The notes below the pieces were generated by a model. It was given only the letters and a program-made list of their open reading frames with translations, ran no database searches and was not told the DNA's origin. A program made the translations under genes and the position numbers. 64,000 nt of DNA, taken from positions 161,871,043-161,935,042 of the forward strand of contig CP136069.1 of the NCBI GenBank assembly GCA_032622095.1. Reading direction: 5' to 3'. Source of the stretch: Siphonodentalium dalli (lineage: Eukaryota; Mollusca; Scaphopoda; Gadilida; Siphonodentaliidae). Positions 17,735-64,000 of this stretch are shown here, piece after piece (position 1 is the stretch's first letter; each line of letters starts with the position of its first letter).

Positions 17735-18035
17735 TTGTTATCAAACTAATAACCTTATTGTAAAACTAATAACTTATTGTAAAACTAATAGCTAAAACCG
17801 TAATTAACTTATTGTAAAACTAATAACTTATTGTAAAATTAATAGACCTTGTTGTAAAACTAATAACTTATTGTAAAACTAATAACTCAAACCGTAATTA
17901 ACTTATTGTAAAACTAATAACTTATTGTAAAATTAATAGACCTTGTTGTAAAATTAATAGACCTTGTTGTAAAACTAATAGACCTTATTGTAAAACTAAT
18001 AACTTATTGTAAAACTAATAACTAAAACCCGAATT
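17735..18035. repeat. Short-period tandem repeat in the left palindrome arm
   Basis: Units of about 19-24 bp are built on AAACTAATAACTTATTGT with AAACCGTAATTAAC variants. The mirror array is at about 20,645-20,860. Confidence 0.75.
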
Positions 18036-18384
18036 AACGCTAGAGGTCTCTGGTGAAGAAACTTTGTTCATGTGACGTCAGAAATATATAAATAAACATG
18101 GGAATTCCCAATGTCATATCGGTGTGACGATTTGAAGTACGTCCTTTTGCGGAGGTCCCCGAAATCGCGGATGTCCCCTAACATGTGCGAAATATGTTGA
18201 TTTTAATGAGGGAACGGGTCAATTGATACCTATTTTAAACAAATAACGACACGATCATCATAATAGTGGTTTGTTCTATCAATTATATGCGCCGAGTTCA
18301 CTTGGTGCAAATCAAACGACGATAAATATTCACTATATATATCTACGGCAGCGTAGAATCGCCACACCATTGTATATTTCAACA

Positions 18385-19445
18385 GGGGTGTAAATGGGGT
18401 ATGGACCATTTTCGAGAACGGTAAGGATTTCGAACGAGTTGATGGTATGGGTGGGTGGCCCGCCCCAAATATCCCCTAGAAACATCCGATCCCCCGCCCA
18501 ACACCCCGGGGGGTACCACACGAGGGGGTGAAAATGGGGTATGGACTATTTTCGAGAACGTAAATGATTTCGACCGATTTGACGGCATGGGTGGGTGGCC
18601 CGCCACACCCCCCCCCAGAAACACTCCGACCCCCACCTATCACCCGTGGGGGTGAAAATGTGGTATGGACCATTTTCGGAAACGGTAAGAATTTCGGTCA
18701 TTTTGATGACAGGAGTGTGTGTCTCGCCCTACATACTCACTAGAAACGCCTCAAACCTCACACCCGGGGGTACCATCCCAAGGGAGTGAAAATCTGGTTT
18801 GGATCTTTTTATTCCTTGTTTATTAGGGATGAGGGTGATGGGGGGATCTAGGTGGTATTTGGTGCGGGTCACCCACACATGCTGTCAAATTGACCGAAAA
18901 AAACGTGTTTTTTTTTCGAATAAGGAATAAATAGATCCAAACCAGATTTTCACTCCCTTGGCATGGTACCCCCGGGTGTGAGGCTTGAGCCGTTTCTAGT
19001 GAGTATTTAGGGCGGGACACACACTCCTGCCATCAAATTGACCGAACTTCTTACCGTTTCCGAAAATGGTCCATATAGCACATTTTCACCATCATATGCA
19101 CGGGTGATAGGTGGGGGGGGGGGGGGGGTCGGAATGTTTCTGGAGGTATTTGGGGCGGGCCAACCACCCATGGATGCCGTCAAATCGGTCGAAATAATTT
19201 CCGTTCTCGAAAATGGTTCATACCCCATATTCACCCCTCGTGTGGTACCCCCGGGGGTGATGGGTGGGGGGGGGGGGGTAGGGATGTTTCTAGGGGATAT
19301 TTGGGGCGGGCCACCCACCGATGCCGTCAACTCGTTCGAAATCCTTACCGTTCTCGAAAATGGTCCATACCCCATTTACACCCCTCAGGGTGGTACCCAC
19401 CCGGAGGTGATGGGTGGGGGTCTGGGAGTTTCTAGGGGGTATTTA
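18385..19445. repeat. Head-to-head array of 135-bp units
   Basis: About four units read GGTGAAAATGGGGTATGGACC...GGGTGGGTGGCCCGCC on the plus strand (at about 18,388, 18,526, 18,650 and 18,785). Four then appear in reverse (GGTCCATACCCCAT at about 18,935-19,360). The switch lies near 18,870. Long C and G runs separate the units. Open frames here on both strands are repeat shadows. Confidence 0.7.
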
Positions 19446-21489
19446 ATTGTTCTGTTTAAACAGATTAGTAATCTGCTTAAACAAATCTGTTGAAATATAC
19501 AATGGTGTGGCGGTTCTACGCTGCCGTATAGATCTATATGTCCTCGTATGCCAGAAGGACTCCTTAAATTGTGAATAAAATGAAGAATATTTAGTAGATG
19601 TTATTTATTAAGTCAATCAAATAATATTATTCATTAGCTAGCGCATATGTATATAATCTCGCAATTTATAATCCTGCATGCTAGCGATATGAGTCAGAAT
19701 GCATTCCGCATATTTTATTGACTCGTTATTGTTGCATAGCCCCGATTTTTCTACATTATATATACTTGAATTTATATATCTTTATGTAATATATAAAGTG
19801 CATATAATAGTATTGAGTTCATGCATCGACTTAGCTATACACCCACTGCCATTTTTCGAAACGCCGGCTTTCTGTGGTGTTGTGGCGCATTCCGGGTGCA
19901 GGACTTCCGTACGCCATCGAGATAATATTCCGGATGCCGGCTGCTGGGTCTTTTTATATACAGAAATTTAATTAGGACTCAACCTCACCAAAGGTTAAGA
20001 AGATCCTATATAGACTCTATATAGGTGTGTCTGATTACCAAAGTCTGGCCAAACATGTCATATTAAATATGTGATTCGTGTTCATATATTACACGATATA
20101 TAACACAACTATATTTACTGGTCAATAGATATGTCTAGTTTCAATTAATAACGTCTTCTTTGGCTGAATCCTCTTAGCTAACACTATTCCGCATGCCGTC
20201 CCTCTGTTATGAGTATTCCGGGTGCTAATGAATAATATTATTTGATTGACTTAATAAATAACATTTAATAAACATTCTTCATCTTATTCACAAATTTAAG
20301 GAGTCCTTCTGGCATACGAGGACATATAGATCTATATAGTGAATATTCATCGTCGTTTGATTTGCACCAAGTGAACTCGGCGCATATAATTGATAGAACA
20401 AACCACTATTATGATGATCGTGTCGTTATTTGTTTAAAATACGTATCAATTGACATATACGCACCCGTTCCCTCATTAAAATCAACATATTTCGCCCATA
20501 TTAGGGGACGTCCCCGAATTCGGGAACCTCCGCAAAGGGAACTACTGCAAATCGTCACACCGATATGACATTGGGAATTCCCATGTTTATTTCTGACGTC
20601 ACATGCACAAAGTTCTTCACCAGAGACCTCTAGCGTTAATTCGGGTTTTAGTTATTAGTTTTACAATAAGTTATTCGTTTTACAATAAGTTAATTACGGT
20701 TTTAGTTATTAGTTTTACAATAAGTTATTAGTTTTACAACAAGGTCTATTAATTTTACAATAAGTTATTAGTTTTACAATAAGTTAATTACGATTTTAGC
20801 TATTAGTTTTACAATAAGTTATTAGTTTTACAATAAGGTTTATTAGTTTGATAACGATAATCATTGATCGTGGGAAATCGTCTATTGGTTTGAAATATGT
20901 CTATTGATTAAGAACATATGGCTATTGAAACGGAATGTACGTTTATTGAATATGCGATAGCTGTACTAATTGTCTGTTATTAGATATTAGTTGAACAATG
21001 AATACTAAAAAATTAAAATAGAACATTAATTCTGCATCGGTCAACATTGATAATGAATCTATATCTATTAAAACGGAATTGTCTCTTATTGAATCCAAGA
21101 ACAACTATTTGTTTGAAAATGGAGACTATTGGTTTTCACAACCACCATTAACTTATATGTCATGTAATTTCCGACCGAATGGCCGCCCATATACATAACA
21201 TTAAACTGGTACCATTACTGGGATGCAGTAGTGCAGTTGTCTCGACGTGTCATTCAGACGCCAAAGAAATCTGAAATGAGATATAATACGATGGTAAAGG
21301 TACTGCAGACAAAATAGTCCTACGCAAATGTGGCGTTTAATTGGGAACTCATCATTTATGGACATGTCTAAACACGATTCTGTCATTATGTGACGAGTCT
21401 GTCTTATCGGTGACAAAATCATTATTTAACACGTATTTTCTCCAATTTACAAGAATTTTGTAAATTCTGAGAGAAGTTAGAGACGGTGT

Positions 21490-28400: not shown

Positions 28401-31400
28401 AACAGTTTGAATTCTGTTGCATTCTGGGTGCCAGAGGGGGGAAGTCTTCAGCAGTTTTCTATTTCTCTGTGGGCATCTTCTGAGACACAGATGTTTCAAA
28501 TAGTGATGAATTATAGTATTTTAATCATATTTTATAACATATATTGTTATTAAAACCGTATATCAATTCACTATAAAAAATAATAATCGGCGACTCGAAT
28601 ATTAAGTGGGCCTTTAAAGATAATTTATGTCATAAATGTATAGAAACTGGGCTTGTAATTTCCAGCTGATTGAGGCTGATTGGTGTTTTTTTTAATTGTG
28701 TCCCATTAATAACATGTACCAAATTAAAAAAATAAATTCCAGATAAATTTAGAACAAAATCCATTTTGAAATATCAAGAAAGTTTCATGGGCGTCTAGCC
28801 TATTATGTAATTGTTGATGAATCCTGTTTATTTAGATATGATGTTGGTGGACCCTATATTCTTACTAAATAATGGTGTCGGTAGGTCTTGCCAATTTAAT
28901 GACATTGTGTGACGTTGTTGCGTGCTGCGGGTTCAGCTATGTGATGCTGATGTAGCCAGCTTACTTACCAGACCATGCAAGTCTTCTCGGTCCGCAACAG
29001 CTAGCCCTGGTATCGGCTGTGTTGATACTGTTTTGGGCCGAGTCCCGATCCGTTGCTCTTCTATAACGGAATTAATTCAAAAGACGTACTACGTGTACAC
29101 ACGTGGAGCCCGGGCATTGAGGTAAATCCCTGAATATGATTAATCATCTAACATGTCCGCGATTAATCAGTCTTCAAAAGTGGTAGACCATTTACTGTGA
29201 TATAAACAGGTATAGTGATGATACGATCGTTTAATATATTGTTTGCATGCATTTTCTGATTATCTGGCAAACAAGGCTTTGTTTACTTATATCAATCTCG
29301 TTGCTTTGACGTTGAACGGACATCTGATGTGTGTTTGTTAGACATCACCATGCTTGGGAAAGTCTACCCTCTATGTTTATGTACACAAAGCTTCCATTTG
29401 ACGACATAAAAGCAAGATAACCCCCGCCCACGATTCTGGGCGTAAAGTCAGTTATAGAAGAGTAACGGGTTGGGACTCGGTCCAAAACAGCATCAATCCA
29501 ACCGATATCCCAAGCTTTTGTGGACAGAGAAGACGTATATGTGGCGTCGGTGTATCCTATTGATTTATTAATAGTTTGCTCATCCGCGAATATGGTGAAG
29601 AAGACCAATATACAAGTCAATGCAGGAACCTACGTCACCAACCAAGTCTCTAACCCAAAGCGGTTTTGATTTTAAATATGTTTAAAGGCACGGGCGGCGC
29701 TCGTTGCAGAAATATTCATATTTGTTCAAATCGCCATCAACAGAAGGAAAAATACAATGTATATAGTTTTGTTCATATGCCAAACATAATCAGCGCGTAA
29801 ATAGTATATTGTCATCAGGACGTGCGATGGTATACGTAAACAAGAACTTGTTCTATTGGTTAATTACACAAAAATTGTATAAACGCTCTTTATTATTTCC
29901 ATATCACGAAAACAGTAACAAATAACGCTCTTTATGTTTACCATATCCGGATCTAAACAAAAGCCAGGTAACGTAACGTTTTTTTGCTTTTGTTTACATA
30001 ACAAAGGAAACACAATTGACAATAGCATGATGTATATGCCATATTTCTGATTGGTATAAGAACAAAATCTATCTATATTTTACTATTATTTCTGTGAATA
30101 TTTTAACAACATACCGCCAACGCCGCCCGTATCTTTAAAACGTATATAAACGGTTGTCTGACGGGATATAATATAGTACCACGCAGAGCTGTGGAAATTT
30201 ACAATACACATTCAAAAATCAGTAATCTCGTATTTATAAACTGAAATTTAAAAGGAAAATAGGTATAGGTTCTGTTCCGATTTTGAACATCATACACACC
30301 TCAACCATGCATTGAATAGATGTTCGCCAAATTCACATAACCCCTTTCGCCCGTAAGTACAATAACTCATGTAACACATATATAGCTAATCCACTGCATG
30401 ATTGCCGATAGCAGCTATCTGGACGTCTAAAGTGACGGTTTGGAGATTACATTAGTGACGTAGGTTCCTGAACGTCTGAAGTGACGGTTTGGAGATTACA
30501 TTAGTGACGTAGGTTCCTGAACGTCTGAAGCGACGGTTTGGAGATTACATTAGTGACGTACGGTTCCTGAACGTCTGACGCGACGGTTTGGAGATTACAT
30601 TAGTGACGTACGGTTCCCGAACGTCTGACGCGACGGTTTGGAGATTACATTAGTGACGTAGGTTCCCGAACGTCTGAAGTGACGGTTTGGAGATTACATT
30701 AGTGACGTAGGTTCCTGAAAGTCTGACGCGACGGTTTGGAGATTACATTAGTGACGTAGGTTCCTGAACGTCTGAAGTGACGGTTTGGAGATTACATTAG
30801 TGACGTAGGTTCCTGAACTTCTGAAGTGACGGTTTGGAGATTACATTAGTGACGTAGGTTCCTGAACGTCTGACGCGACGGTTTGGAGATTACATTAGTG
30901 ACGTAGGTTCCTGAACGTCTGAAGTGACGGTTTGGAGATTACATTAGTCACGTAGGTTCCTGAACGTCTGACGCGACGGTTTGGAGATTACATTAGTGAC
31001 GTACGGTTCCTGGACGTCTGACGCGACGGTTTGGAGATTACATTAGTGACGTACGGTTCCCGAACGTCTGACGCGACGGTTTGGGGATTACATTAGTGAC
31101 GTACGGTTCCTGAACGTCTGACGCGACGGTTTGGAGATTACATTAGTGACGTACGGTTCCTGAACGTCTGACGCGACGGTTTGGAGATTACATTAGTGAC
31201 GTAGGTTCCTGAACGTCTGAAGTGACGGTTTGGAGATTACATTAGTGACGTAGGTTCCTGAACGTCTGAAGTGACGGTTTGGAGATTACATTAGTGACGT
31301 ACGGTTCCTGAACGTCTGACGCGACGGTTTGGAGATTACATTAGTGACGTAGGTTCCTGAACGTCTGACGCGACGGTTTGGAGATTACATTAGTGACGTA

Positions 31401-34400
31401 GGTTCCTGAACGTCTGAAGTGACGGTTTGGAGATTACATTAGTGACGTAGGTTCCTGAACGTCTGAAGTGACGGTTTGGAGATTACATTAGTGACGTAGG
31501 TTCCTGAACGTCTGAAGTGACGGTTTGGAGATTACATTAGTGACGTACGGTTCCTGAACGTCTGACGCGACGGTTTGGAGATTACATTAGTGACGTAGGT
31601 TCCTGAACGTCTGACGCGACGGTTTGGAGATTACATTAGTGACGTAGGTTCCTGAACGTCTGGCGCGACGGTTTGGAGATTACATTAGTGACGTAGGTTC
31701 CTGAACGTCTGAAGTGACGGTTTGGATATTACATTAGTGACGTAGGTTCCTGAACGTCTGAAGTGACGGTTTGGATATTACATTAGTGACGTAGGTTCCT
31801 GAACGTCTGACGCGACGGTTCGGAGATTACATTAGTGACGTAGGTTCCTGAACGTCTGAAGTGACGGTTTGGAGATTACATTAGTGACGTAGGTTCCTGA
31901 ACGTCTGACGCGACGGTTTGGAGATTACATTAGTGACGTAGGTTCCTGAACGTCTGAAGTGACGGTTTGGAGATTACATTAGTGACGTAGGTTCCTGAAC
32001 GTCTGAAGTGACGGTTTGGAGATTACATTAGTGACGTAGGTTCCTGGCCCTGATATTACTATATATTTCCGTTGAAATGTTGCATCGCTGGCGTCAAGAT
32101 TACTTGTACTGTCTCGTTTGGATTTGTTGACAACACCCTTGACATATGGGTTCAAGCGTATGTGACTCTCTACGAGCAAACCGCAACTCCCATTTTATTA
32201 ATCTGACTATGTGTATTTCCAGGCGGTCAACAGCGCCGGGGCCCAGGAATGAATCCACTTTGTGAGTACAGTATATATATTGAGTACTAATATATAGTCC
32301 AAGAGATATTGGTCGACCTTTGCATCATAGGAGTCAACTTCACCCCACTATTTTCTTCCGTAATGTCTCCTCTAATTTGTTTCGGTTGTTAACAAGAAAA
32401 ACAAGTGGCCTCAGGGACTCCAGACAAGATGGCATACATCATGGCGGCCATTTTACTTGATATGCACCATCTCTCTTTGATCGCCATTATAGTAAACATA
32501 TATAATATCACATGCGGTTTTATTTTCAAAGATCCGACTCCAAGTCCAAAATCTAATATGGCGGCCAAGATGGTGGCCAAAATATTAAAAAAAAATGCTA
32601 AATCTTATAAAAGAGTGATTTACGCACACAAAGAGACCATTCCTGGTCGGATATTTTTGCCTGATATCACGTTTTTCCAAATGCCGATATATATATAAAT
32701 ATTTTCGTCATAGAAAACCATATGGTGCGATAATATGAAGGGAAACATGTGTATTAAATGCATCTGTACCAAATCTAACGACATAATAAGTAAATGTATG
32801 TATAGTTCCGCGTATATAGGCGCGTATATAGAAGCGGCGTACATGTGCAGCGCAAAAGGGGGCGGGCAGCGGAGCGAGTTACAGGCCCCTGTGTTCATAC
32901 CGGTGTTATATTGGTGTGTTTTAACTGCGAGCACCCATGGCGATTTAAAGGTACTCAATCGGACCAGAGTGTTCCCATATCATCAAGATACAGCAACAAC
33001 AACAACAACAACATTTCTTCGAAATACGATTAATTGTCAGAATCGATAAATTGCAACAAAATAATGCTAACCATGCACTGTCAACTATGGTATTAAATTT
33101 CGACACCGTACGTTTGACGGAGTGTTTCTGGGGCACAAATAACTGAACATCTCGAGAAATAACGCACTTCAAAAATCGATATCTGATCACTCTGAGCTTT
33201 GATGGGTGGATTCCTGGACTTGAATCAGATATTGTTTGAACCCGGAAAGCAAAGAAAAAGTAATTTAGGAGCGTTAAAATTCGGATAATGCATCTTTAAT
33301 TAGCGATTCTTCATAAAGAGAAAGTTATATATTGTGTCACTTCCTCAACTTGACATTTTTAATTTTCCACGCGCGGCTTTGGATTTTATTTATGTACCAT
33401 CAAATGCAAGTTTTCCGATTGATCATACCCATGCAATTGAAATGCAAAGCCTCTAATTGAACAGCGTTGAACACTTTTACTAAGTTTGTATTACCCATGA
33501 TCCCTACAGCTATCACATAACAAGCGTGATCTGTCAAGTTATTAGCGGGTTGAAAGGCCCACCTAATTTTCGAATGCCCAAATCACATTATATACAATAT
33601 ATTCCATATTATATAAATAAAATCCAAAACCTCGCGTGGAAAATGAAAAATGTCAAGTTGAGTTTCGTTCTCATTGACACTTTAATAATGCACCAGGCTA
33701 CACTTCTTTCCGAAACAGTATCGAGTATCGATTATAGATTTTGTTATGTGATTACTCATAGCCGCAAGGGCGCCCGAATTTTAGGTGGGCTGAGACTCTT
33801 TGTACGACTTAATTTTACATGATATACTCACGGTTGTAACACAGTTTTTGTATAATATACCTTTTATATACACATAAATATAATAAACTAGCTTCAAATT
33901 CACCTTAAATATGTATAATTCTGGCAGAAATATGAAATATACTATAATTTGCCACAATTTCCCCCTGAAATACCATTCAATTTGCCCGAAAATTGCCCGA
34001 ATTGGACCGAAAATATTATCAATTTGTCCGAATATTGCCCGAATTGTGAGCTTTCAAAACGCGTGGGGGGGGGGGGGCTGCTGCATCCCTCTCAGCCGCT
34101 AACCCGGTTGTGTGGTTATACTTATCCGTTTATTTGATATTTTCTCGAGAATTGTAGAAGACAGTAACAATACAGTATCAAAATGGCGCATAGGTGACAC
34201 AATTTTCCATCATCAAAGAAATGTCAGTTACCCAGTTGGATTTTGAGAGTGTCACTCATTTTCATGTACAGTAAACTGGACATCTTTTCTGAACTGTAGC
34301 TACTTATGGATTTCAAGGGGAGATAATTCATAAGAATTAGGTGACATATTTAAAGGGGTACTGTACACTAAGTCCGGCCATTTATGGGACCATCCATGGC

Positions 34401-50959: not shown

Positions 50960-53386
50960 TCACGTATTAAATATCCCCTATCGGGAGAAATAATACGGCG
51001 AGCGTGGCAGTTATAAACTGCTGCGACCAAGGGAAAGAAGCTGAGTTCTCTACGAAAATTAACCTCTCCAAAATCACGCAGTTCACGACAGATTTGGAAC
51101 GCATTAGTGGTAAGAATCCTATATCGGCACATGATATTTCAGCTCTCAATACTAAACTTAAGTCTATTTATCTGGATACTGCATCATCGGCTCTCGGAAC
51201 GCACAAGAGTCACGAAAACCGGTCGAAAAAGCGGAAATCTACTATGCCTTGGTATTCCAGGGATTGTGCTAATTGTCGGATACTTTACCGCCGTGAATTG
51301 AAACGCTATCAAAGCAATCGCTCCGAATCTTAACAGAACGAGACTCAGTGACGCAAGAACAACGTATAGGCGAGTGACGCGAATGAGCAAACGCAAGTAT
51401 GATAACGAAACTCAACTGAAAATGTCTCGTCTTCGCACATCCATACTTGTGTTTTTAAAAATATTTGTCAAACTATATACCGTGTGCCGATGCTGTTAAG
51501 TTAAGTTAGCTATATAAAGAATATTAAGTGCATTGAAAAAACACGAATACTCAGTTGCTTAACAGCCTTCGCTCACGGTATAATGGTCGGAATTTGTTTT
51601 ATGTAAACATGTATTCATTACATCTTCTCTTTATACCACCTGATTTGGTGGCTAAAAGAATGAATAAACTATATGGCGCGAGTTCTGGAAGATCATAGGT
51701 AGTAAAAATACATCTCCGTCGCTTAATGAATTTAGGGATTATTTTTCCGAAAATAATGTATCACCCGACCAACATAATGCGACACATATATAAGTTTAGA
51801 TTCAGTGAACTTAGAGTTATCGGAATTGAACCGTGATATCGAAAAAGACGAGATAGATAGGGCTATACGCTGATTGCAATTTGGAAAGGCCAGTGGGATA
51901 GATAACATAACAAATGAATACATAAAAATGACATCGGGCCATTTAAATGAACCTCTGCGATTATTTTTCAATATTATTATCAATTCAGGCATATGTCCAG
52001 ACGAATGGGGAATTAGGATAATACAGCCGCTTTTCAAATCGTACATGTGTAAGATCAGAAAAATCCTCAAAATTACAGACCAATAACACCAACCAGCTGC
52101 ATTGCGAAGCTCTTTACTTCGATTCTAAATGACCGAGTTCAGATCTTCCTAGAACATAATAAACTGCTATCTCATAACCAATTGCAAGCCGGCTTCAGAA
52201 AGAACTATTGCATTATTGATCACATATTTTCGCTCAACTGTCTCATAGATCTTGTAAACTTACAGAAGAAAAATCTGTTCTGTGGTTTCATAGACCTTTC
52301 GAAAGCCTTCGATCGTGTGTGGAGAGCGGGTTTATGGAAGAAGCTTTTCGATATTGGGATCGAAGGGAAAATATTGAATGTGATAAAAAATATGTACGAA
52401 AATACTAAGTCATGTGTGACCTGGAATGGCAAACATTCTGAGCTATTCCCGTGCCAACTTGGTGTACGGCAAGGTTAAATCTCTCCCCTATTTTGTTCTC
52501 GATATTCACCAATGATTTAGTATATTTTTTAAGTGCAAACAGTGTAAGTGGAATTGAAATTTCTAATTCTAAGACCCAGTCGAGCATCAACTATCTGAAA
52601 CTATTCTGTCTATTATATGCCGACGATACAGTGCTCTTGTCTGATACATGGACCGCAAGCCATGTTACACAATTATTCAACGTATTGTCTGACATGGAAA
52701 CTAACGATTAATATTGCTAAGACCAATGTAGTAATTTTCGGTAGAAAACGGAAACATAACTACAAATTCACTTTGGATGGCCAACCTATTGAAACCTCAC
52801 TTCATTATAAATACCTAGGTGTTACATTCTCCAGCAACGGTTCCTTTGTAGAAGATAAAATGTAGGTGTCAACACGCCAAACGAGCAATATTTGCGCTAA
52901 TTTCCAAGATGCGTAGCCTGAACCTGTCTCTTAAATCATGTTAAATGCGTGCTACATATATATGACACAACTATTATCCCTAGCCTGTTGTATGGATCAG
53001 AGGTCTGGGTTTTTGGGAATAACGCCATTATACAGCGTCTTGAACTTTGGTTCCTAAAATATTTCTTCAAATGGAAAAAATCAACACCGAGTGTACTAAT
53101 TTATGGCGAGATCGGAATGTACCCAGTTACGACCAGAATCAAACAACGGATCTTGAATTATTGGGCCAAACTCATTAGTGGCAGCCGGGATAAGATCAAC
53201 TGCTTACTTTACTAGACATTTTGCAGTAGATTTGGCCCGCGCGACAAACTTTACGAACAACAACAAGTCGTGGATCAACCACGTGTCAAATATTTTTGAA
53301 TGAAATTGGTTTACACGGTATATGGGATTTGCATCATGTGGGCTCACTAAAGTTGTTCAGTCATGCCATCACGCAACAGTTACAAG
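50960..53386 (+). pseudogene. LINE ORF2: reverse transcriptase domain, decayed
   Basis: Successive frames give GKASGIDNITNEYIK, SGICPDEWGIRIIQPLFKS, QAGFRKN, FIDLSKAFDRVW (catalytic Asp motif A), GVRQG, LSPILFSIFTNDL, LLYADDTVL (YADD catalytic core), NVVIFGRK, YKYLGV and SLLYGSEVW. This is a non-LTR reverse transcriptase of the CR1/L2/jockey broad group. Several frameshifts and stops make it inactive. The frame runs up to the insertion point of the palindromic element at 53,387 and resumes at 63,746. Confidence 0.8.
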
Positions 53387-54690
53387 AGAAGATAGAGCCA
53401 CTCGTTGGGTGCAATCGTAAAATTGGGCGTAAGTGTATTTTGAGTATGTTAGTACTATAGTACTATATATTTGAGAATTGTTGATAAAAATTGGCGTAAG
53501 TATATTTTCGATAGAGCAGGGCGTCATATTTGAGCGTCCTGTTGGTATGTGTATATTGTTGACTAACAAGTTGGTTCATCGTGTATAAGTGTGAAGTTGT
53601 TTTTTTTGGGAACTTTGTAATTTCGGTCGACTATTGCGTGTCTGCAACTAAATAATCTCAGCTTAAGATGGCTTAACCAAATTATTCATAGAGCAGGTCG
53701 TCATATTTGAGCATCATGTGGGTGTGTGTATATTGTTGGTTCATCGTGTGAAGTTGCTTTGTAATCTCGGCCGACTATTAAATGTCGGACACATCAACTA
53801 AATAATCTCAGCTTAAGACGGCTTAACCAAATTATTTGCGTAAAGATTCAGACACACATACATCTTACTGTATTTTGATCAACAGATAAATATTCCCACC
53901 TACTGGATAGTGCGTATTCATCCGAAGAAATGTCTGATTCTGTCAACTGGGATTAAAAAAATGAACACTTTAAATATTGTATATCCTACCATATGTGAAC
54001 TTGAATTATGTCATCACCAATAAATACATGTATAATCGATTATCTTTTCAATAATAATATCTCGCTGGGTTCTATCGTGGTAAAAATCTTTTGTTTGACA
54101 AGAGATTTTCCACTCAATGTTTGTCACAGACCTACGTCATAATACTCCCCCTACCCCAACCACCTTCACATCTCACATCACTTACCCGCACCTATTCATG
54201 CACGTATATATTGTACAATGTGTACGTGTCGGAGCACAAGACATCCAAATAAGGAGTATTACCTCATAGTAAAGGAACGCTCTTTATTCATATTTCAACA
54301 TAAATGACACACTTACATTATCGAGAATTATTGGAAAACATAGTAATGTGATAGCGAACATCAAACGAGTCTGCGCACGCATATCTGTCAAAAGATACAA
54401 TAGCAGTCATTGGTCAATTTATCCACGGTGTCAGCTCAGTACACAATCGGCACGAAGCCGGAGGTCAACTCAGTACACAATCGATTTCATCATGTCACCA
54501 GGTTACACATATCTATATAATAGAGTGTTCATATTGAAATCACTCATAATTGCATTGACATTTGTATAGGTAGGTTGGATTGTAGCCAATGTGATAAATT
54601 TGTATCCAGTACAAACAACACGAAGAGACGTTGTGAACGACAGCCTGAACTAGTTAACTAGTCCACCACGTTTCCCTTGTTTCTGTTCTA

Positions 54691-54700
54691 TATAAATATA
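54691..54700 (+). promoter_or_regulatory. TATA-like box of the left-arm ATPase gene
   Basis: TATAAATATA lies 43 bp before the ATG at 54,743. The same box is kept in the right arm (62,425-62,434). Confidence 0.45.
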
Positions 54701-54742
54701 GGTGCATAGAAGAACGCTCGATTTCACTGATTATATAGGAAA

Positions 54743-56451
54743 ATGAAGTATCAATGTGAAGAGTGCTTAAGTGTCTATGCTTGGCAACAACAACAACAAC
54801 ACCAACAACAACAACACCACCAACAACAACAAAAACAACAGCAGCAGCATCATCAACCGCCACAACAACAACAACAACAGCAACAACAACAACAACATCA
54901 TCAGCCGCCACAACAACAACAACAACAACAACACCAACAACAACAACAACAACAGCAGCATCATCAGCCGCCACAACAACAACAACAACAACAACCGCAA
55001 CAACAACAACAACAGCAACAACAACAACAACAACAGCAACCAATCGACATAACATCCTGCTTTGATGATCCAATGGCCAAAATCCAGGAAGATTTTATTT
55101 TCAAGCATCCATTCACGGCATGTGTAAGTGGACCGACATCTAGTGGGAAGACGTACTTAGTGAAAACCTTGCTACAAAAGTCTGCCTCAAAAATATCACG
55201 AAATAAAGTATACCGTCACCCCTCATGTCAACTTTATACGAGGAATACCAGCAAACTTGGATTCTCTTATCAACCCCCGGTATAAAAATCTAGTTATACT
55301 CGATGACTTGATGCAAACTTCATCAAAAGACCAGAGAGTTAATGATTTGCATTCCGAAGGAAGTCACCATTTGAACTTATCTTTGATAATTTTGAACCAG
55401 AATTTCTACTACAACAAAGATCCAACGCAACGACGAAATTGTCAATATTTGGTATTGTTCAATAACCCAATCGACAAGGGATTAATTTCAACATTATCAA
55501 GACAGATGTATCCTGAATGTCCTCAGCGTATGGTTCGAGAGTTTTCTGGAAGCGACGAGTGAACCGTGCGTTTACCTACTGGTGGATTTAAAAGCCGCAA
55601 CACCGGACACATTACGTCTGCGACAGAATGTACTAAAAGAGGACACGAACCAACATATGGGTGAATGGAATGGCATGAAATACGATGACAGAGAACACCC
55701 AGATGAACAGAATGGGATGAAAAAACATACAAAAGACACTGAGACCCAGGGTCAACAGAATGCGATGAAATACGATGACAGAGAACTCGCTGGTCAAGGC
55801 ATAGCATATAATTATATTGTGCCCCAGGGTCAACATAATGGCTATACTAAGGACATAAGGCCACCTGGTGAGCTCGATGAAATTAATAAGAAGAACCGTC
55901 AAAACATAGACATTCGAGAAGACATGTCGTACCCTTGTAATGACTGCGGGCTTTTGTTCGAAGATCATTATGATGTTCAGAGACACGTAAAAAACTGGTG
56001 TAAAGAAAATAAGTTAAAACGAAAATTAACTGAGGACACGGATGATAGTCAGAATAAGAAAATTAAATTGAATGAAGATGAATACTTCCAAAGTTTGTGT
56101 GATGAGAGTAGAGATAAAACACATGAGGAATGGAGTGATAAAGTGGAAACGTATAAGGAAAATGGCTCGACAGAAACAGAAACAAAAGAACAAGCTGACA
56201 AGGACCTTAAAAGTGAACACATGAGGCAATTTATGAATGGTTATGCTTGGACAATAGTAGCGTATCTGCAGCTGCGCAATGGGACTCTGCACAACAGAGT
56301 CATGGATAAAATCGACAAATATTTGAATAATGGTTATGAAGATCGTGATGCAGTGAAAATGTCAATATTAAAGTACAAACCGATGCTAGAAAAATCCATG
56401 GACGAAACAAATGACACTTCTGACGAAAGTGATGACAATTCGGACGATTAA
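54743..56451 (+). pseudogene. C2H2 / Gln-rich / packaging-ATPase fusion, left copy, broken
   Basis: Order of parts: the first half of a C2H2 finger (YQCEECLSVYAW; the second half is deleted), a Gln/His-rich tract of about 90 residues (54,782-55,045), then FKHPFTACVSGPTSSGKT (Walker A). After a 53-bp deletion and frame loss near 55,200 come NLVILDDLM (Walker B), SHHLNLSLIILNQNF and NNPIDKGLISTLSRQMYP. A one-base insertion near 55,548 shifts the frame again. From 55,582 a long open part has NGMKYDDRE-type repeats, a second finger (YPCNDCGLLF...HVKNWC) and an acidic tail (DESDDNSDD). AATAAA overlaps the end (56,457). The ATPase matches the A32/FtsK-HerA-like packaging family seen in virus-like elements of invertebrates, by motif recall. 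Confidence 0.7.
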
Positions 56452-56462
56452 ATTTCAATAAA

Positions 56463-57100
56463 CTTCATCAACATGATATTCTCGTTTTCGTTATATATCT
56501 ATAAGCGGGGAGAGAGTGAGTGGATTATTGGGAATTGTAGAGTGAGAAACGATACGTAATGATAAAAGGCGCATTAAGAGCCCGAAAATTTGAACTTTAA
56601 ATATTGTTCTGTGTCATTTTAACTTTCAACCACTGCGCTTGTATTGTTAACATTCATTCATAATGAGTGTCTTGTGTCCCTTTAGAGTGTCTTGTGTTCC
56701 TTTAATATTCAAACACCAATATTGCATCACGTCCCTTGTTTCGTGTCACTTTAACTCCTTGAGTGTATTGCCCCTTCTAATGATGTCATAGCATGGGTAC
56801 ATGCAAGACAGTATAACACTATGACTATGTCTGTATCTGTTGTTGGGAAGATGTGAAATATAAATTTCAGTTCATTCGTGTAGTAATTTCGTATGAATGA
56901 AACACTCTTCATTCGTGTATTACCAACAGGAAGTTGTACTATTTTTGAAAGCAATCACGATGTGTAAAATTTTCATTAAATTACAATAAACCAAGGGCTA
57001 AGGTGTAACAGGATTATGGTCAAATAACCCAGAGTGACTTAATTCACAATGAAGTAGACTCCACTGTAGATGCGAGATGTATTGTTTGTCCATAGCTCAA
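56463..57100. other. Non-coding part of the left arm
   Basis: A 67-codon frame on the minus strand (56,751-56,954) is kept in the right arm (60,043-60,246). It has no ATG start and no known domain; arm similarity alone explains its conservation. Confidence 0.3.
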
Positions 57101-58317
57101 GGGCGCGTACACATGGCGGGCAAGAAAATATCAGGTATGCCCCATGTGACTTACTTGACCAATCAAATAAATAATACCGGAAAATATCCGACGAAGGCAG
57201 CGCGCTGATATTTTATCGCCAGTTGGTGATATGTGTTCACCTTGATTGGTGGCCATCGGTATCCGTTAACTAATCTCTATAAGGGACACGCTGGTAACCG
57301 TTCACGCACTCGAGTTATGGTCCATCAATATTATCGCCTGTTCAACAATTGACTTCGTAATTCCATTTTGGATTGTTTGACATAATCGCTGAGCTATTAT
57401 ATGGATATGTGTGGGGACATATATTTTTGAGGGTTTCCGCTGACGGAGGATGTCCATGGATTTCCAACTGCACCCCCTCTTGAATCGGGCCAAAGACCCA
57501 AGATCACATAATTGAATTTGCACACCTCCCATCGTCTTTGAATTTCCAATATGCATATGTTACCTCACATACCTTGAATTTTGACTGGACATCGGGGAGG
57601 GAGGGGCCTAGAAGAAATTCCAAACCAATAATTTGATCAAAGTAGGAAAAATGCAAATGTTGGTCTAAAACCACTAATTCCACATACATTAATGGTTGAA
57701 AAATCAGACTACAAGAACAATTTCAAACCATTGTTGGTGTGAAATTTCCAACTAATATTGTTTCCGAGTTGTCCCCATGTCCCCACATGCACCATGTAAG
57801 TTCGGTAACGTAATGTACACCACAGCCCCATGCACCAAGCAACAATCTCCTGAAAACTTCATATGGGGTCTCAATGGGGGTGGGGTCATCAGATTTGCCA
57901 CAAAACCATAATAACATTTGTCACCCCACATATACATGCACTGTGAAATTATAACATTTCCAAATTTCCAAATAACGTGACCACTTTCTCATTATGCAGA
58001 AGATCTTTATGCATGAGATTAGCAACGTTGCTACAGGTTAGTGGTGTCTAATCCCACCGACTTCGGTAATACATGTCAACTTTACAGTTGGAAATTTCAC
58101 AAAGCTATGAATTGCCAAAATGGACTATATGTTATTTACCGGATGCAATTCACTTGAACCAGCATGACTAATACTGTTCTGATTGAGCTCAATCAACGCC
58201 ATCTATAAACCGCCGCGTTCTCACGGGTGTAATCTTTGCAGCAAGAAGATATCAGTGTGCAATTTTACCTGATATTTTCTTGCAGATATTTTCTTGCAGC
58301 TTCATGTGTACGCGCCC
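57101..58317. mobile_element. Harbinger-like non-autonomous element inserted in the left arm
   Basis: Ends GGGCGCGTACACATG and its near complement; the inner end part GCAAGAAAATATCAGGTA is also inverted at the right. The right arm keeps the empty site (CATAGCTTAAGTG on the minus strand). Here the flanks are CAA and TAA, a 3-bp TAA duplication with one change, as in PIF/Harbinger. It is 1,217 bp with no transposase. Confidence 0.75.
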
Positions 58318-58356
58318 TAAGTGTGTAAACATCACATTTTGCTCGTCACGCTATGA

Positions 58357-58360
<4 letters not shown>

Positions 58361-58402
<42 letters not shown>
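58361..58402. repeat. TA microsatellite, left arm
   Basis: About 20 TA units. The mirror tract is at about 59,815-59,860, preceded there by an AC run. Confidence 0.8.
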
Positions 58403-58406
<4 letters not shown>

Positions 58407-59163
58407 TGAAAATTAAGAAAGGTATCCGTTCATTGTTGAATATTTATTACATGTATGTACAAACAGCTATACCGGTTTCGGCACATCTTGCCTTTTCAAT
58501 AGCTTGGAGTTCTGCGTGGCTTGTATATAGATATATATATATATGTGCACACATGATACAATTCTAGTCATACCTGAGATTAAGTATAATGTAAACATAG
58601 GATTTGCTCATCAGACGATAATCTGACAATATTTACGCATGGTAAATTTATATTCATGCGTAATGGTAAGGTTAAGGTAATGTTTTTTGTTATGGTCAGG
58701 ATTTTGTTGCGGCCATGTTCTAGCATAGATCGATAAATAAGATAAAGATTGTTATAAGTAATCGTTGTTTCACAGACAGTTCTATTGGTGATCGAATTTG
58801 ATAACTATTTTGTTGGAAAAACTAAGAGTGTTAGAGTAGCCTCCCTGTTATTTAAATAAAGAGCGTTTGTTTCGCTTATGTGCGATTGAGCACAGGCGGT
58901 AACTAGGTCTATCGAGTATATAACATATAGCGCCATCATATAAAAGATGAAAGAAACATATCAACAGCTTTGTTTAGTCTGATATTACGTATGTATATGT
59001 GTGCACGTCTAACATGTGACCTTTGGTGAAATAGTGCTACACGATGCTTAATAACTTCATCGTTATAGAGAGGTGATGAATAAACGCTCCTTGTTATTTA
59101 CGTGAGAGTATAATGTCCAATTATTGCAAATAAAACATTGTGGACATATGTGGACACCCGATT

Positions 59164-59186
59164 GGCACACTTACTGATCACGTGAT
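59164..59186. other. Centre (loop) of the 10 kb palindrome
   Basis: The unpaired 23 bp between CACCCGATT and AATCGGGTG contain the short palindrome TGATCACGTGAT's core (GATCACGTGATA region). This is the turnaround point of the inverted dimer. Confidence 0.8.
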
Positions 59187-59802
59187 AATCGGGTGTCCAC
59201 ATATGTCCACAATCTTTTATTTGCAATAATTGGACATTATACTCTCACGTAAATAACAAGGAGCGTTTATTCATTACCTCTCTATCATGATGAAGGTATT
59301 AAGCATCGTGTAGCACTATTTCACCAAAGGTCACACGTTAGACGTGCACACGTATACATACGTAATATCAGACTAAACAAAGCTGTTGATATGTTTCTTT
59401 CATCTTTTATATGATGGCGCTATATGTTATATGCTCGATAGACCTAGTTACCGCCTGTGCTCAATCGCACATAAGCGAAACAAACGCTCTTTATTTAAAT
59501 AACAGGGAGGCTACTCTAACACTCTTAGTTTTTCCAACAAAATAGTTATCAAATTCGATCACCAATAGAACTGTCTGTGAAACAACGATGACTTATAACA
59601 ATCTTTAACTTATTTATCGATCTATGCTAGAACATGGCCGCAACAAAATCATGACCATAACAAAAAACATTACCTTAACCTTACCATTACGCATGAATAT
59701 AAATTTACCATGCGTAAATATTGTCAGATTATCGTCTGATGAGCAAATCCTATGTTTACATTATACTTAATCTCAGGTATGACTAGAATTGTATCATGTG
59801 TG

Positions 59803-59861
<59 letters not shown>

Positions 59862-62014
59862 TCATAGCGTGACGAGCAAAATGTGATGTTTACACACTTA
59901 AGCTATGAACAAACAATACATCTCCATCTACAGTGGAGTCTACTTCATTGTGAATTAAGTCACTCTGGGTTATTTGACCATAATCCTGTTACATCTTAGC
60001 CCTTGGTTTATTGTAATTTAATGAAAATTTTACACATCGTGATTGCTTTCAAAAATAGTACAACTTCCTGTTGGTAATACACGAATGAAGAGTGTTTCAT
60101 TCATACGAAATTACTACACAAATGAACTGAAATTTATATTTCACATCTTCCCAACAACAGATACAGAGATAGTCATAGTGTTATACTGTCTTGCATGTAC
60201 CCATCCTATGACATCATTAGAAGGGGCAATACACTCAAGGAGTTAAAGTGACACGAAACAAGGGACGTGATGCAATATTGGTGTTTGAATATTAAAGGAA
60301 CACAAGACACTCTAAAGGGACACAAGACACTCATTATGAATGAATGTTAACAATACAAGCGCAGTGGTTGAAAGTTAAAATGACACAGAACAATATTTAA
60401 AGTTCAAATTTTCGGGCTCTTAATGCGCCTTTTATCATTACGTATCGTTTCTCACTCTACAATTCCCAATAATCCACTCACTCTCTCCCCGCTTATAGAT
60501 ATATAACGAAAACGAGAATATCATGTTGATGAAGTTTATTGAAATTTAATCGTCCGAATTGTCATCACTTTCGTCAGAAGTATCATTTGTTTCGTCCATG
60601 AATTTTTCTAGCATCGGTTTGTACTTTAATATTGACATTTTCACTGCATCACGATCGTCATAACCATTATTCAAATATTTGTCGACTTTATCCATGACTC
60701 TGTTGTGCAGAGTCCCATTGCGCAGCTGCAGATACGCTACTATTGTCCAAGCATAACCATTCATAAATTGCCTCATGTGTTCACTTTTAAGGTCCTTGTC
60801 AGCTTGTTCTTTTGCTTCTGTTTCTGTCGAGCCATTTTCCTTATACGTTTCCACTTTATCACTCCATTCCTCATGTGTTTTATCTCTACTCTCATCACAC
60901 AAACTTTGGAAGTATTCATCTTCATTCAATTTAATTTTCTTATTCTGACTATCATCCGTGTCCTCAGTTAATTTTCGTTTTAACTTATTTTCTTTACACC
61001 AGTTTTTTTTACGTGTCTCTGAACATCATAATGATCTTCGAACAAAAGCCCGCAGTCATTATAAGGGTACGACATGTCTTCTCGAATGTCTATGTTTTGA
61101 CGGTTCTTCTTATTAATTTCATCGAGCTCACCAGGTGGCCTTATGTCCTTAGTAAAGCCATTATGTTGACCCGGGGGCACAATATAATTATATGCTATGC
61201 CTTGACCAGGGAGTTCTCTGTCATCGTATTTCATCGCATTCTGTTGACCCTGGGTCTCAGTGTCTTTTGTATGTTTTTTCATCCCATTCTGTTCATCTGT
61301 GTGTTCTCTGTCATCGTATTTCATGCCATTCCATTCACCCATATGTTGGTTCGTGTCCTCTTTTAGTACATTCTGTCGCAGACGTAATGTGTCCGGTGTT
61401 GCGGCTTTTAAATCCACCAGTAGGTAACCGTACGGTTCACTCGTCGCTTCCGAAAACTCTCGAACCATACGCTGAGGACATTCAGGATATATCTGTCTTG
61501 ATAATGTTGAAATTAATCCCTTGTCGATTGGGTTATTGAACAATACCAAATATTGACAATTTCGTCGTTGCGTTGGATCTTTGTTGTAGTAGAAATTCTG
61601 GTTCAAACTTATCAAAGATAAGTTCAAATGGTGACTTCCTTCGGAATGCAAATCATTAACTCTCTGGTCTTTTGATGAAGTTTGCATCAAGTCATCGAGT
61701 ATAACTAGATTTTTATACCGGGGGTGATAAGAGAATCCAAGTTTGCTGGTATTCCTCGTATAAAGTTGACATGAGGGGTGACGGTATACTTTATTTCGTC
61801 ATATAGGGGCTGCCAATATTTATAAAACCATATTATTCTGTCAGGTGCGGGTGATATTTTTGAGGCAGACTTTTGTAGCAAGGTTTTCACGAAGTACGTC
61901 TTCCCACTAGATGTCGGTCCACTTACACATGCCTTGAATGGATGCTTGAAAATAAAATCTTCCTGGATTTTGGCCAGTGGATCATCAAAGCAGGATGTAA
62001 TGTCGAATGGTTGC

Positions 62015-62048
<34 letters not shown>

Positions 62049-63739
62049 TGTGTTGTTGGTGTTGGTGTTGTTGTGGCGGCTGATGATGCGGTTGTTTTTG
62101 TTGCTGTTGTTGTTGTTGTGGCGGCTGATGATGCTGCTGTTGTTGTTGTTGTTGGTGTTGTTGTTGTTGTTGTGGCGGCTGATGATGCTGTTGTTGTTGT
62201 TGCTGTTGTTGTTGTTGTTGTTGTGGCGGCTGATGATGCTGCTGCTGTTGTTGTTGTTGGTGTTGTTGGTGTTGTTGTTGTTGTTGTTGCTGATCTGAAG
62301 GTGTGTGTTTAACTTTGATATGACTCTTCAAACTATCTTACCAAGCATAGACACTTAAGCACTCTTCACATTGATACTTCATTTTCCTATATAATCAGTG
62401 AAATCGAGCTTTCTTCTATGCACCTATATTTATATAGAACAGAAACAAGGGAAACGTGGTGGACTAGTTAACTAGTTCAGGCTGTCGTTCACAACGTCTC
62501 TTCGTGTTGTTTGTACTGGATACAAATTTATCACATTGGCTACAATACAACCTACCTATCCAAATGTCAATGCAATTATGAGTGATTTCAATATGAACAC
62601 TCTATTATATAGATATGTGTAACCTGGTGACATGATGAAATCGATTGTGTACTGAGTTGACCTCCGGCTTCGTGCCGATTGTGTACTGAGCTGACACCGT
62701 GGATAAATTGACCAATGACTGCTATTGTATCTTTTGACAGATATGCGTGCGCAGACTCGTTTGATGTTCGCTATCGCATTACTATGTTTTCCAATAATTC
62801 TCGATAATGTAAGTGTGTCATTTATGTTGAAAGATGAATAAAGAGCGTTGCTTTACTATGAGGTAATACTCCTTATTTGGATGTCTTGTGCTCCGACACG
62901 TACACATTGTACAATATATACGTGCATGAATAGGTGTGGGTAATTGATGTGAGATGTGAAGGTGGTTGGGGTAGGGGGAGTATTATGACGTAGGTCTGTG
63001 ACAAACATTGAGTGGAAAATCTCTTGTCAAACAAAAGATTTTTACCACGATAGAACCCAGCGAGATATTATTATTGAAAAGATAATCGATTATACATGTA
63101 TTTATTGGTGATGACATAATTCAAGTTCACATATGGTAGGATATACAATATTTAAAGTGTTCATTTTTTTAATCCCAGTTGACAGAATCAGACATTTCTT
63201 CGGATGAATACGCACTATCCAGTAGGTGGGAATATTCATCTGTTGATCAAAATACAGTAAGATGTATGTGTGTCTGAATCTTTACGCAAATAATTTGGTT
63301 AAGCCGTCTTAAGCTGAGATTATTTAGTTGATGTGTCAGACATTTAATAGTCGGCCGAGATTACAAAGCAACTTCACACGATGAACCAACAATATACACA
63401 CACCCACATGATGCTCAAATATGACGACCTGCTCTATGAATAATTTGGTTAAGCCATCTTAAGCTGAGATTATTTAGTTGCAGACCCGCAATAGTCGGCC
63501 GAAATTACAAAGTTCCCAAAAAAAAACAACTTCACACTTATACACGATGAACCAACTTGTTAGTCAACAATATACACATACCAACAGGACGCTCAAATAT
63601 GACGCCCTGCTCTATCGAAAATATACTTACGCCCATTTTTATCAACAATTCTCAAATATATAGTACTATAGTACTAACATACTCAAAATACACTTACGCC
63701 CAATTTTACGATTGCACCCAACGAGTGGCTCTATCTTCT
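59187..63739 (-). repeat. Right arm of the palindrome
   Basis: It is the inverted copy of the left arm without the Harbinger-like insertion. It mirrors the terminal tandem units, the TAGTACTATAGTACTA palindrome (63,661-63,676) and the TATA box. Confidence 0.85.
60546..62382 (-). pseudogene. C2H2 / Gln-rich / packaging-ATPase fusion, right copy, broken
   Basis: The start codon is at 62,380-62,382. The N-terminal finger is complete in DNA (C-x2-C ... H-x4-H) but a TAA replaces the codon after its Trp. The Gln/His tract (about 62,020-62,290), Walker A (GPTSSGKT) and the following segment DRIIWFYKYWQPLYDEI are intact. A one-base loss near 61,710 breaks the frame just before Walker B, and two extra bases in an A-run near 61,000 break it again after the second finger. 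The acidic tail is open to 60,546. The lesions differ from those in the left copy. Confidence 0.7.
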
Positions 63740-63745
63740 TGCAAG

Positions 63746-64000
63746 ACAACTTTTTTCCAGGAATGGTTCACCACCGTTCAATCGTTTTCTAAGTATAAGT
63801 TATATGTGGACACCAAACCTTATTTCAGAGAAGAACCCTATTTGGTGAAACTAAGAACATCAGAAGCAATTTTAATGTTCAAATTTCGTACTAGAAATCA
63901 CAGATTACCCATTGAAACCGGTAACTGGGCTGGTCTCCCTACACACGAAAGAACATGCCCTTCGTGCAGCAAAATCCTTATCGGAGATGAATATCACGCT
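63746..64000 (+). pseudogene. LINE ORF2 C-terminal part, runs off the window
   Basis: After one extra T, the frame gives FFQEWFTTVQSFSKYKLYV, LRTSEAILMFKFRTRNHRLP and the zinc motif CPSCSKILIGDEYH. This continues the LINE cut at 53,386 and confirms that the 10 kb palindrome is an insertion. Confidence 0.8.

Follow-up and report, generated by a model that had tools for sequence, protein, structure and literature searches.

Adeno-associated virus (AAV), a small parvovirus, has hairpin ends and is copied by a Rep-based mechanism. Its snapback genomes are self-complementary, defective molecules that derive from either the 5' or the 3' end of the parental genome, according to the available part of one report (PMC8235507). 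They are the closest precedent for an element in a 64,000-nucleotide stretch of DNA from the scaphopod mollusc Siphonodentalium dalli (assembly GCA_032622095.1, contig CP136069.1, positions 161,871,043 to 161,935,042; hereafter, the window). The element, at 53387 to 63739 of the window, is inverted from its first to its last base and is probably the integrated snap-back genome of a non-autonomous element of the Polinton type, inserted by enzymes acting in trans. Unlike the AAV molecules, such snap-back forms are fixed in chromosomes with target duplications of the integrase type.

Intact vertebrate Mavericks are 12.7 to 24.6 kb long, with terminal repeats of 46 to 1,447 bp and 6-bp target duplications; their commonest end motif is (AGT)2, and their end repeats have been tied to jumping-back in protein-primed copying (available sections of PMC8097293). 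Lengths of up to 40 kb are given for Polintons/Mavericks in the accessible part of another paper (PMC6431247). The window element resembles these elements in its 6-bp duplication, its inverted ends with a repeat of 2 to 3 bases and its A32-type packaging ATPase, but it is palindromic and only 10.35 kb long, its (AGA)2 ends are not among the motifs given in those sections of PMC8097293, and it has no recognised PolB, integrase or protease in the eight frames scanned. Long arms may also exist in Polinton-like viruses of cryptophytes, since their detection accepted terminal repeats ranging from 100 bp up to 8 kb (PMC12220804, in excerpt). We found no description of a palindromic Polinton in titles and abstract openings of the Polinton, Maverick and adintovirus literature, a sample largely outside the subscription papers.

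A preliminary description, made from the letters of the window, had claimed a 10.35-kb inverted dimer with proper ends and a 6-bp target duplication. The dimer is borne out: the arms match end to end around a 23-nt loop (59164 to 59186) closed by the stem CCCGATT/AATCGGG (59157 to 59163 and 59187 to 59193). Global alignment of the arms gives 80 substitutions and 13 indels; in a chained BLAST alignment, 79 of 4,295 aligned bases are mismatched (1.84%), with many of these mismatches lying in a CAG-type repeat. Because a 10-kb, 98% inverted repeat is bounded here by a target duplication, the arm comparison led us to reject a chance origin of the palindrome. The ends are also as claimed, AGAAGATAGA on the left and its complement, TCTATCTTCT, on the right (AGAAGA...TCTTCT), whereas the duplication is imperfect in the window, with TACAAG on the left (53381 to 53386, plus strand) and TGCAAG on the right (63740 to 63745, plus strand) agreeing at five of six positions; at a paralogous locus, L041, it is perfect. 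Kinship with Polintons holds as well, given the A32 ATPase, the 6-bp target duplications and the repeat-type end motif, and the evidence supports a snap-back dimer that took both termini from one parental end and integrated with valid ends.

Each arm carries the same series of modules. Terminal region T, which begins with (AGA)2, occupies 53387 to 54336 on the plus strand and matches, in whole or in part, the outer ends of relatives L042 to L053; its inverted copy is at 62789 to 63739 on the minus strand, the start being mapped through the arm alignment. The ATPase gene follows, at 54731 to 56451 (plus strand) and 60546 to 62337 (minus strand). Next comes module D (56444 to 57101, plus strand; right-arm copy at about 59897 to 60553), recognised by comparison of the arms and of relatives, as was module C, which reaches the axis at 58524 to 59163 (plus strand) and returns, inverted, at 59187 to 59826 (minus strand). 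For comparison with relatives, T was taken as 53387 to 54336, D as 56444 to 57101 and C as 58524 to 59175. The left arm is 1.2 kb longer than the right, mainly because of a nested insert (about 57101 to 58317) with 15-bp inverted ends, GGGCGCGTACACATG; it has no counterpart in the right arm, nor at this point in L045. It has a probable 3-bp TAA duplication with one copy altered, and we take it to be perhaps a non-autonomous element of the PIF/Harbinger type. Further differences between the arms amount to 132 bp at a TA repeat and to 39, 36 and 53 bp within and close to the ATPase gene.

At the axis, relatives continue ...CCCGATTGGCACACTTACTGATCACGTGATAA through the loop sequence, in which the parental sequence runs on, to ...GTGATAA and into GCTG or similar, and then into other sequence, whereas in the window ...GTGATAA is followed by TCGGGTGTCC, the complement of the element's own arm. 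Seventeen sequences from 11 other copies (L042 to L048 and L050 to L057, with L043 and L048 more diverged) pass the axis point. GTGATAA is present in 16 of these, the exception being one side of L052/53 (GTAATAA), and GCTG then follows in 14 of the 17. Across the genome searched (2.23 Gb in nine contigs, designated C with a number in coordinates below), the exact 23-base junction of the window occurs once, and the hairpin GGACACCCGATT-N(0-30)-AATCGGGTGTCC is found in exactly two places, the window and C5:97599848. The window element is therefore self-complementary, with a short loop and a junction that is absent from the parental sequence, and this junction would be the trace expected of a strand end that folded back and primed its own extension.

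The second hairpin belongs to a sister copy on a different chromosome (C5:97597105-97605403, L058 and L061), in which end, ATPase, axis, D and ATPase are arranged as a mirror image and the left arm carries a deletion. Its target duplication, TATATT, is perfect. Its core pieces are 94 to 99% like the window (88 to 96% for pieces that take in the CAG repeat or the T side), and its two ends are 97.6 to 99.1% like each other. Two insertions thus share the same stem and have different target duplications, which implies a mobile form. Other palindromes turn at other points. The element at C4:186257067-186264951 is bounded left and right by T-like ends; its flanks agree at five of six positions (CACAAG/CACATG), and its axis, read by eye, is a 36-nt loop in D. 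A further copy, at C3:105473320-105474540, keeps to the parental sequence for about 80 nt after the point at which the window turns, and only then folds back to 58796; we rejected the idea that its axis is merely a deleted form of the window's, as the parental sequence continues past that point. The window, C4 and C3 copies therefore show that the C side has three or more distinct axes. In view of the sister copy and the independent palindromes, the palindromic form appears to be recurrent and inheritable rather than one-off.

The anatomy, the abrupt junctions as set against relatives, the insertion as a unit with target duplications, the sister copy and the other axes are all observed; from them we infer the following course. 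The parent was probably a short linear element of the order T-ATPase-D-C-T', with the A32-type ATPase as its one recognised gene. This linear genome would have been copied outside the chromosome, probably by protein priming and with a helper polymerase, and the nascent strand heading toward the C end would have stopped after ...CACGTGATAA. The stalled strand would then have folded back, with its last bases, AA, pairing with the TT just before the 23-nt loop, and would have been extended along itself to its own start, giving both sides the same valid T end. An integrase from an autonomous Polinton would finally have inserted the dimer as a unit, duplicating 6 bp.

The element belongs to a family of short, high-copy elements whose scanned frames yielded no recognised gene apart from the ATPase. 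An exact 47-base end probe has 173 matches genome-wide (reversed control, 0). Among the 100 matches listed, 23 convergent pairs closer than 20 kb are spaced 3.0 to 11.3 kb apart, and there are no divergent pairs closer than 20 kb; one convergent pair 43.6 kb apart (C4:37196097/37239602) was left out of the count of 23. The terminal 600 bases, the axis region and module D gave 63, 115 and 46 genome matches, taken from the best 40 of 451, 1,044 and 2,823 candidates, respectively. In 13 elements compared, the target duplication is perfect in 12 and 5/6 in the window. Of their 26 ends, 25 begin with AGAAGA or AGTAGT, that is, (AGA)2 or (AGT)2 (the left end of L041 has one base changed), and the short repeated motif is present, inverted, at both ends in 12 of the 13. 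The left end of L055 was not found.

Several relatives have inverted arms that stop short of a full palindrome. In L042, L043, L044/45, L046/47 and L048/49, one ATPase stretch is flanked by long inverted arms that contain T and either the whole or a portion of C, and the arms of the last three also include D; arm divergence among the five is 1.07 to 2.31%. A second group, L054 to L057, is mirrored about the 5' side of the ATPase: L056 is palindromic throughout, with its axis within a GCC repeat and an arm divergence of 0.61%, and L054, L055 and L057 have an unpaired centre. The centre of L050/51 is masked. In L052/53 the arms have diverged by 4.11%, and the frames appear LINE-like on visual inspection. 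L059/60 is directly repeated, not mirrored; at this locus (C6:128582000-128596000) a 3-kb direct repeat of about 100% identity recurs about 10.9 kb apart, with T ends co-oriented.

Inverted arms that flank a single ATPase stretch in the centre and grade in length from about 1.7 to 4.4 kb are what one might see if terminal repeats had expanded on the chromosome by strand switching or gap repair, as in foldback-type transposons. Galileo, such a transposon and a relative of the P element, is of another kind than the window element in its ends, target duplications and gene content, the window element having 6-bp duplications and a virus-type ATPase. The two are alike in their long terminal inverted repeats, which are variable in Galileo (available part of PMC3573991). 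As an explanation of the window element, repeat expansion is unlikely: the arms pair right up to a 23-nt loop, where the junction is abrupt, they end exactly at the element termini, and the sister copy, which shares the stem, was inserted separately and has a duplication of its own. For the long-arm relatives with their graded series, such chromosomal repeat growth is the leading alternative, and the two processes may well coexist.

Slightly less probable still is that the dimer formed straight from a full-length Polinton or adintovirus and lost the half with polymerase, integrase and capsid, as the preliminary description had proposed. The ATPase being the sole recognised gene would suit such a loss, and so would the intact PolB genes elsewhere in the genome. 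In the Mytilus homologue P0047 the ATPase is followed by an adenain-type protease domain (PF00770), and the gene therefore once came from a fuller virus. The relatives speak against the lost half, since in them only a few hundred bases separate the axis point from the terminal region on the far side, and nothing in those examined places PolB, integrase or capsid beyond the axis. The proposed search for full-length relatives by terminal sequence led to short T-ended elements, the 23 pairs of 3.0 to 11.3 kb, and to none shown to bear PolB. Because the other terminus lies so close past the axis and the pairs are so short, the parent was most likely already a short, non-autonomous element. A candidate monomer is the 6.4-kb element at C2:117161105-117167547, which has the family end motif with one end base changed, CACACC on both sides, an adjoining partial C, and one D among the best 40 candidates; provided that the ATPase lies inside, it looks like a monomer, because a second D and C would then hardly fit.

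PolB genes do occur elsewhere in the genome. Among 1,596 candidates, 69 loci were scored, with frames of 803 to 1,330 aa, mostly of about 952 or 1,312 to 1,330 aa and only one with a stop; such similar scores and nearly stop-free frames suggest recent activity of autonomous Polintons, and the intact genes point to possible helpers. Of the 46 scored PolB loci on C1 to C5, one lies less than 40 kb from a listed T match (0.27 expected for 100). This locus, C1:147782600, adjoins a 7.85-kb T element (C1:147788728-147796578) with AACGTG on both sides, a perfect duplication of its own; the T element is a separate insertion, and PolB was rejected as one of its genes. Two cases might still fit a full-length parent: the 43.6-kb T pair on C4, and a T end 15 kb from PolB at C6:187622609, a locus probed on two sides, where the 1.4 kb adjoining PolB holds another reading frame and no end. 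Within that region (L067, C6:187620500-187621900), stretches of about 30 to 60 bases are 81 to 96% like family sequence upstream of the ATPase (window 54400 to 54432 and others), perhaps a common promoter.

In the window element, the ATPase gene is broken into three frames in each arm, overlapping in the left, and includes a C2H2-like finger whose matches fall below the cut-off. PF04665 was recognised at 55164 to 55562 in the left arm (E=3.1e-5, 24.0 bits, cut-off 22.8), and the right-arm pieces matched it at E values of 0.0021 and 0.038, both under the cut-off. The right-arm piece at 60980 to 61798 has 133 homologues at an E-value of 0.01 or less, and the named ones among the 120 listed are from bivalves (Mytilus, Argopecten and Mya). 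In L056 the frame is open over 491 aa, and PF04665 scores above the cut-off there and in L054. The longest listed open reading frame (ORF) of the element, 321 aa, is the end of the ATPase, and none is long enough for PolB. Eight of the 45 ORFs listed for 52500 to 64000 were scanned, without a match to PolB, retroviral-type integrase or adenain-type protease; no other capsid search was made, and capsid proteins are, to our knowledge, poorly covered by Pfam. None of eight frames scanned in relatives matched PolB, integrase or protease. Compared with viral contigs, the ATPase gave 50 pattern matches and no relative among them, and none of the solved structures matched at an E-value of 1 or less. 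The window is not among the 150 places listed in a genome scan for Pox_A32. The pooled pN/pS ratio of the ATPase is 0.63, from 28 non-independent pairs of open pieces with tiny counts (range, 0.21 to 3.16), too weak a figure to serve as evidence. The family's protein has two different N-terminal finger beginnings (L047, L049 and L056 versus window 54731, L055 and L057). A second A32-type ATPase family, mostly of 227-aa open frames with identical scores, is present at very many places elsewhere in the genome.

Inverted chimeras are frequent in some long-read libraries, and our analysis used the assembled sequence alone, so that a chimeric read or a collapsed hairpin has to be weighed. It would have to account for the 80 substitutions and 13 indels between the arms, the 1.2-kb insert among them, and for arm-specific variants held in common with L041 (C9:162871159-162873263), a paralogous locus 1 Mb away. 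The insertion point there is identical to the window's, the target duplication is TGCAAG on both sides (6/6), and the flanks differ from the window's at 9 of 2,419 bases (0.37%). L041 has lost most of the palindrome through a central deletion that joins window position 53968 to about 62226. Seven columns separate the window arms in the first 584 or so bases: in four, the left arm of L041 agrees with the left arm and its right arm with the right; two are inconsistent and one is at the alignment edge. Over a longer stretch of the L041 right arm, 16 of 21 arm-distinguishing columns match the window's right arm and 5 its left. Because L041 shares both the insertion point and the arm-specific variants, an assembly error, which the preliminary description had raised against its own reading, is a very unlikely source of the palindrome. 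The wider locus (C9:162869000-162875000) is a segmental duplicate of the window locus carrying the same insertion. In one further column the window arms agree with each other and the L041 arms agree on a different base, which hints that one arm has converted the other.

Chromosomes are known to undergo palindromic amplification, but the idea that a monomer was inserted first and then duplicated in inverted orientation at its site is equally improbable and was rejected, as host flanks would have entered the palindrome, whereas the arms end at the element termini with the 6-bp duplications directly outside them.

Several points weigh against an integrated snap-back genome inserted in trans. All the support comes from assembled sequence, as opposed to reads, episomes or transcripts, and protein priming is suggested by the end motifs and kinship alone. 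The priming overlap, AA against TT, is only about 2 nt. An autonomous element with T ends was not found among the loci compared, and the helper is accordingly a conjecture. The candidate monomer on C2 was read in four pieces only, its ATPase content being assumed. The 20 fetched stretches were mostly chosen for paired opposite matches, which makes the share of palindromes in the family not estimable. The outer ends of L054 to L057 match T only in stretches of at most 75 bases, which makes them a different end type. In the sister copy on C5, the first 130 or so bases are 89% like the window (about 11% diverged), and the loop is 8 nt long as against 23 nt. The shorter loop could be derived by deletions in a window-type loop; given its length and the divergence of the first bases, the C5 copy may also have arisen by a fold-back of its own at this stem.

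The remainder of the window holds other repeats. The host DNA flanking the element contains a frame that we take to be reverse-transcriptase-like from its YADD motif. Tandem arrays at 17743 to 18653 recur as reverse complement at 19115 to 20849 (units compared by eye), and 17743 to 20849 is perhaps a second, smaller inverted-repeat element. A 49-bp unit is repeated in tandem at 30419 to 32046 (33 copies, 96% matches).

Chromosomal snap-back junctions, read together with the parental sequence from relatives, are direct traces of strand fold-back in the copying of linear genomes. With many copies per genome, initiation, strand switching, helper dependence and the formation of defective genomes become testable by sequence and by free molecules. 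A word of caution also follows, as some 'transposons' with long inverted repeats may be defective viral genomes. We tentatively consider, as a possibility rather than an expectation, that the family is a lineage of single-gene Polinton satellites usually transmitted as a snap-back genome closed at the C or the ATPase end, comparable to the 5' and 3' snapback genomes of AAV, a stable form that replicates and repeatedly integrates. If so, such palindromes would persist because each carries valid ends, often with two copies of the ATPase, and their frozen junctions would be a fossil record of the extrachromosomal copying of Polinton-type DNA.

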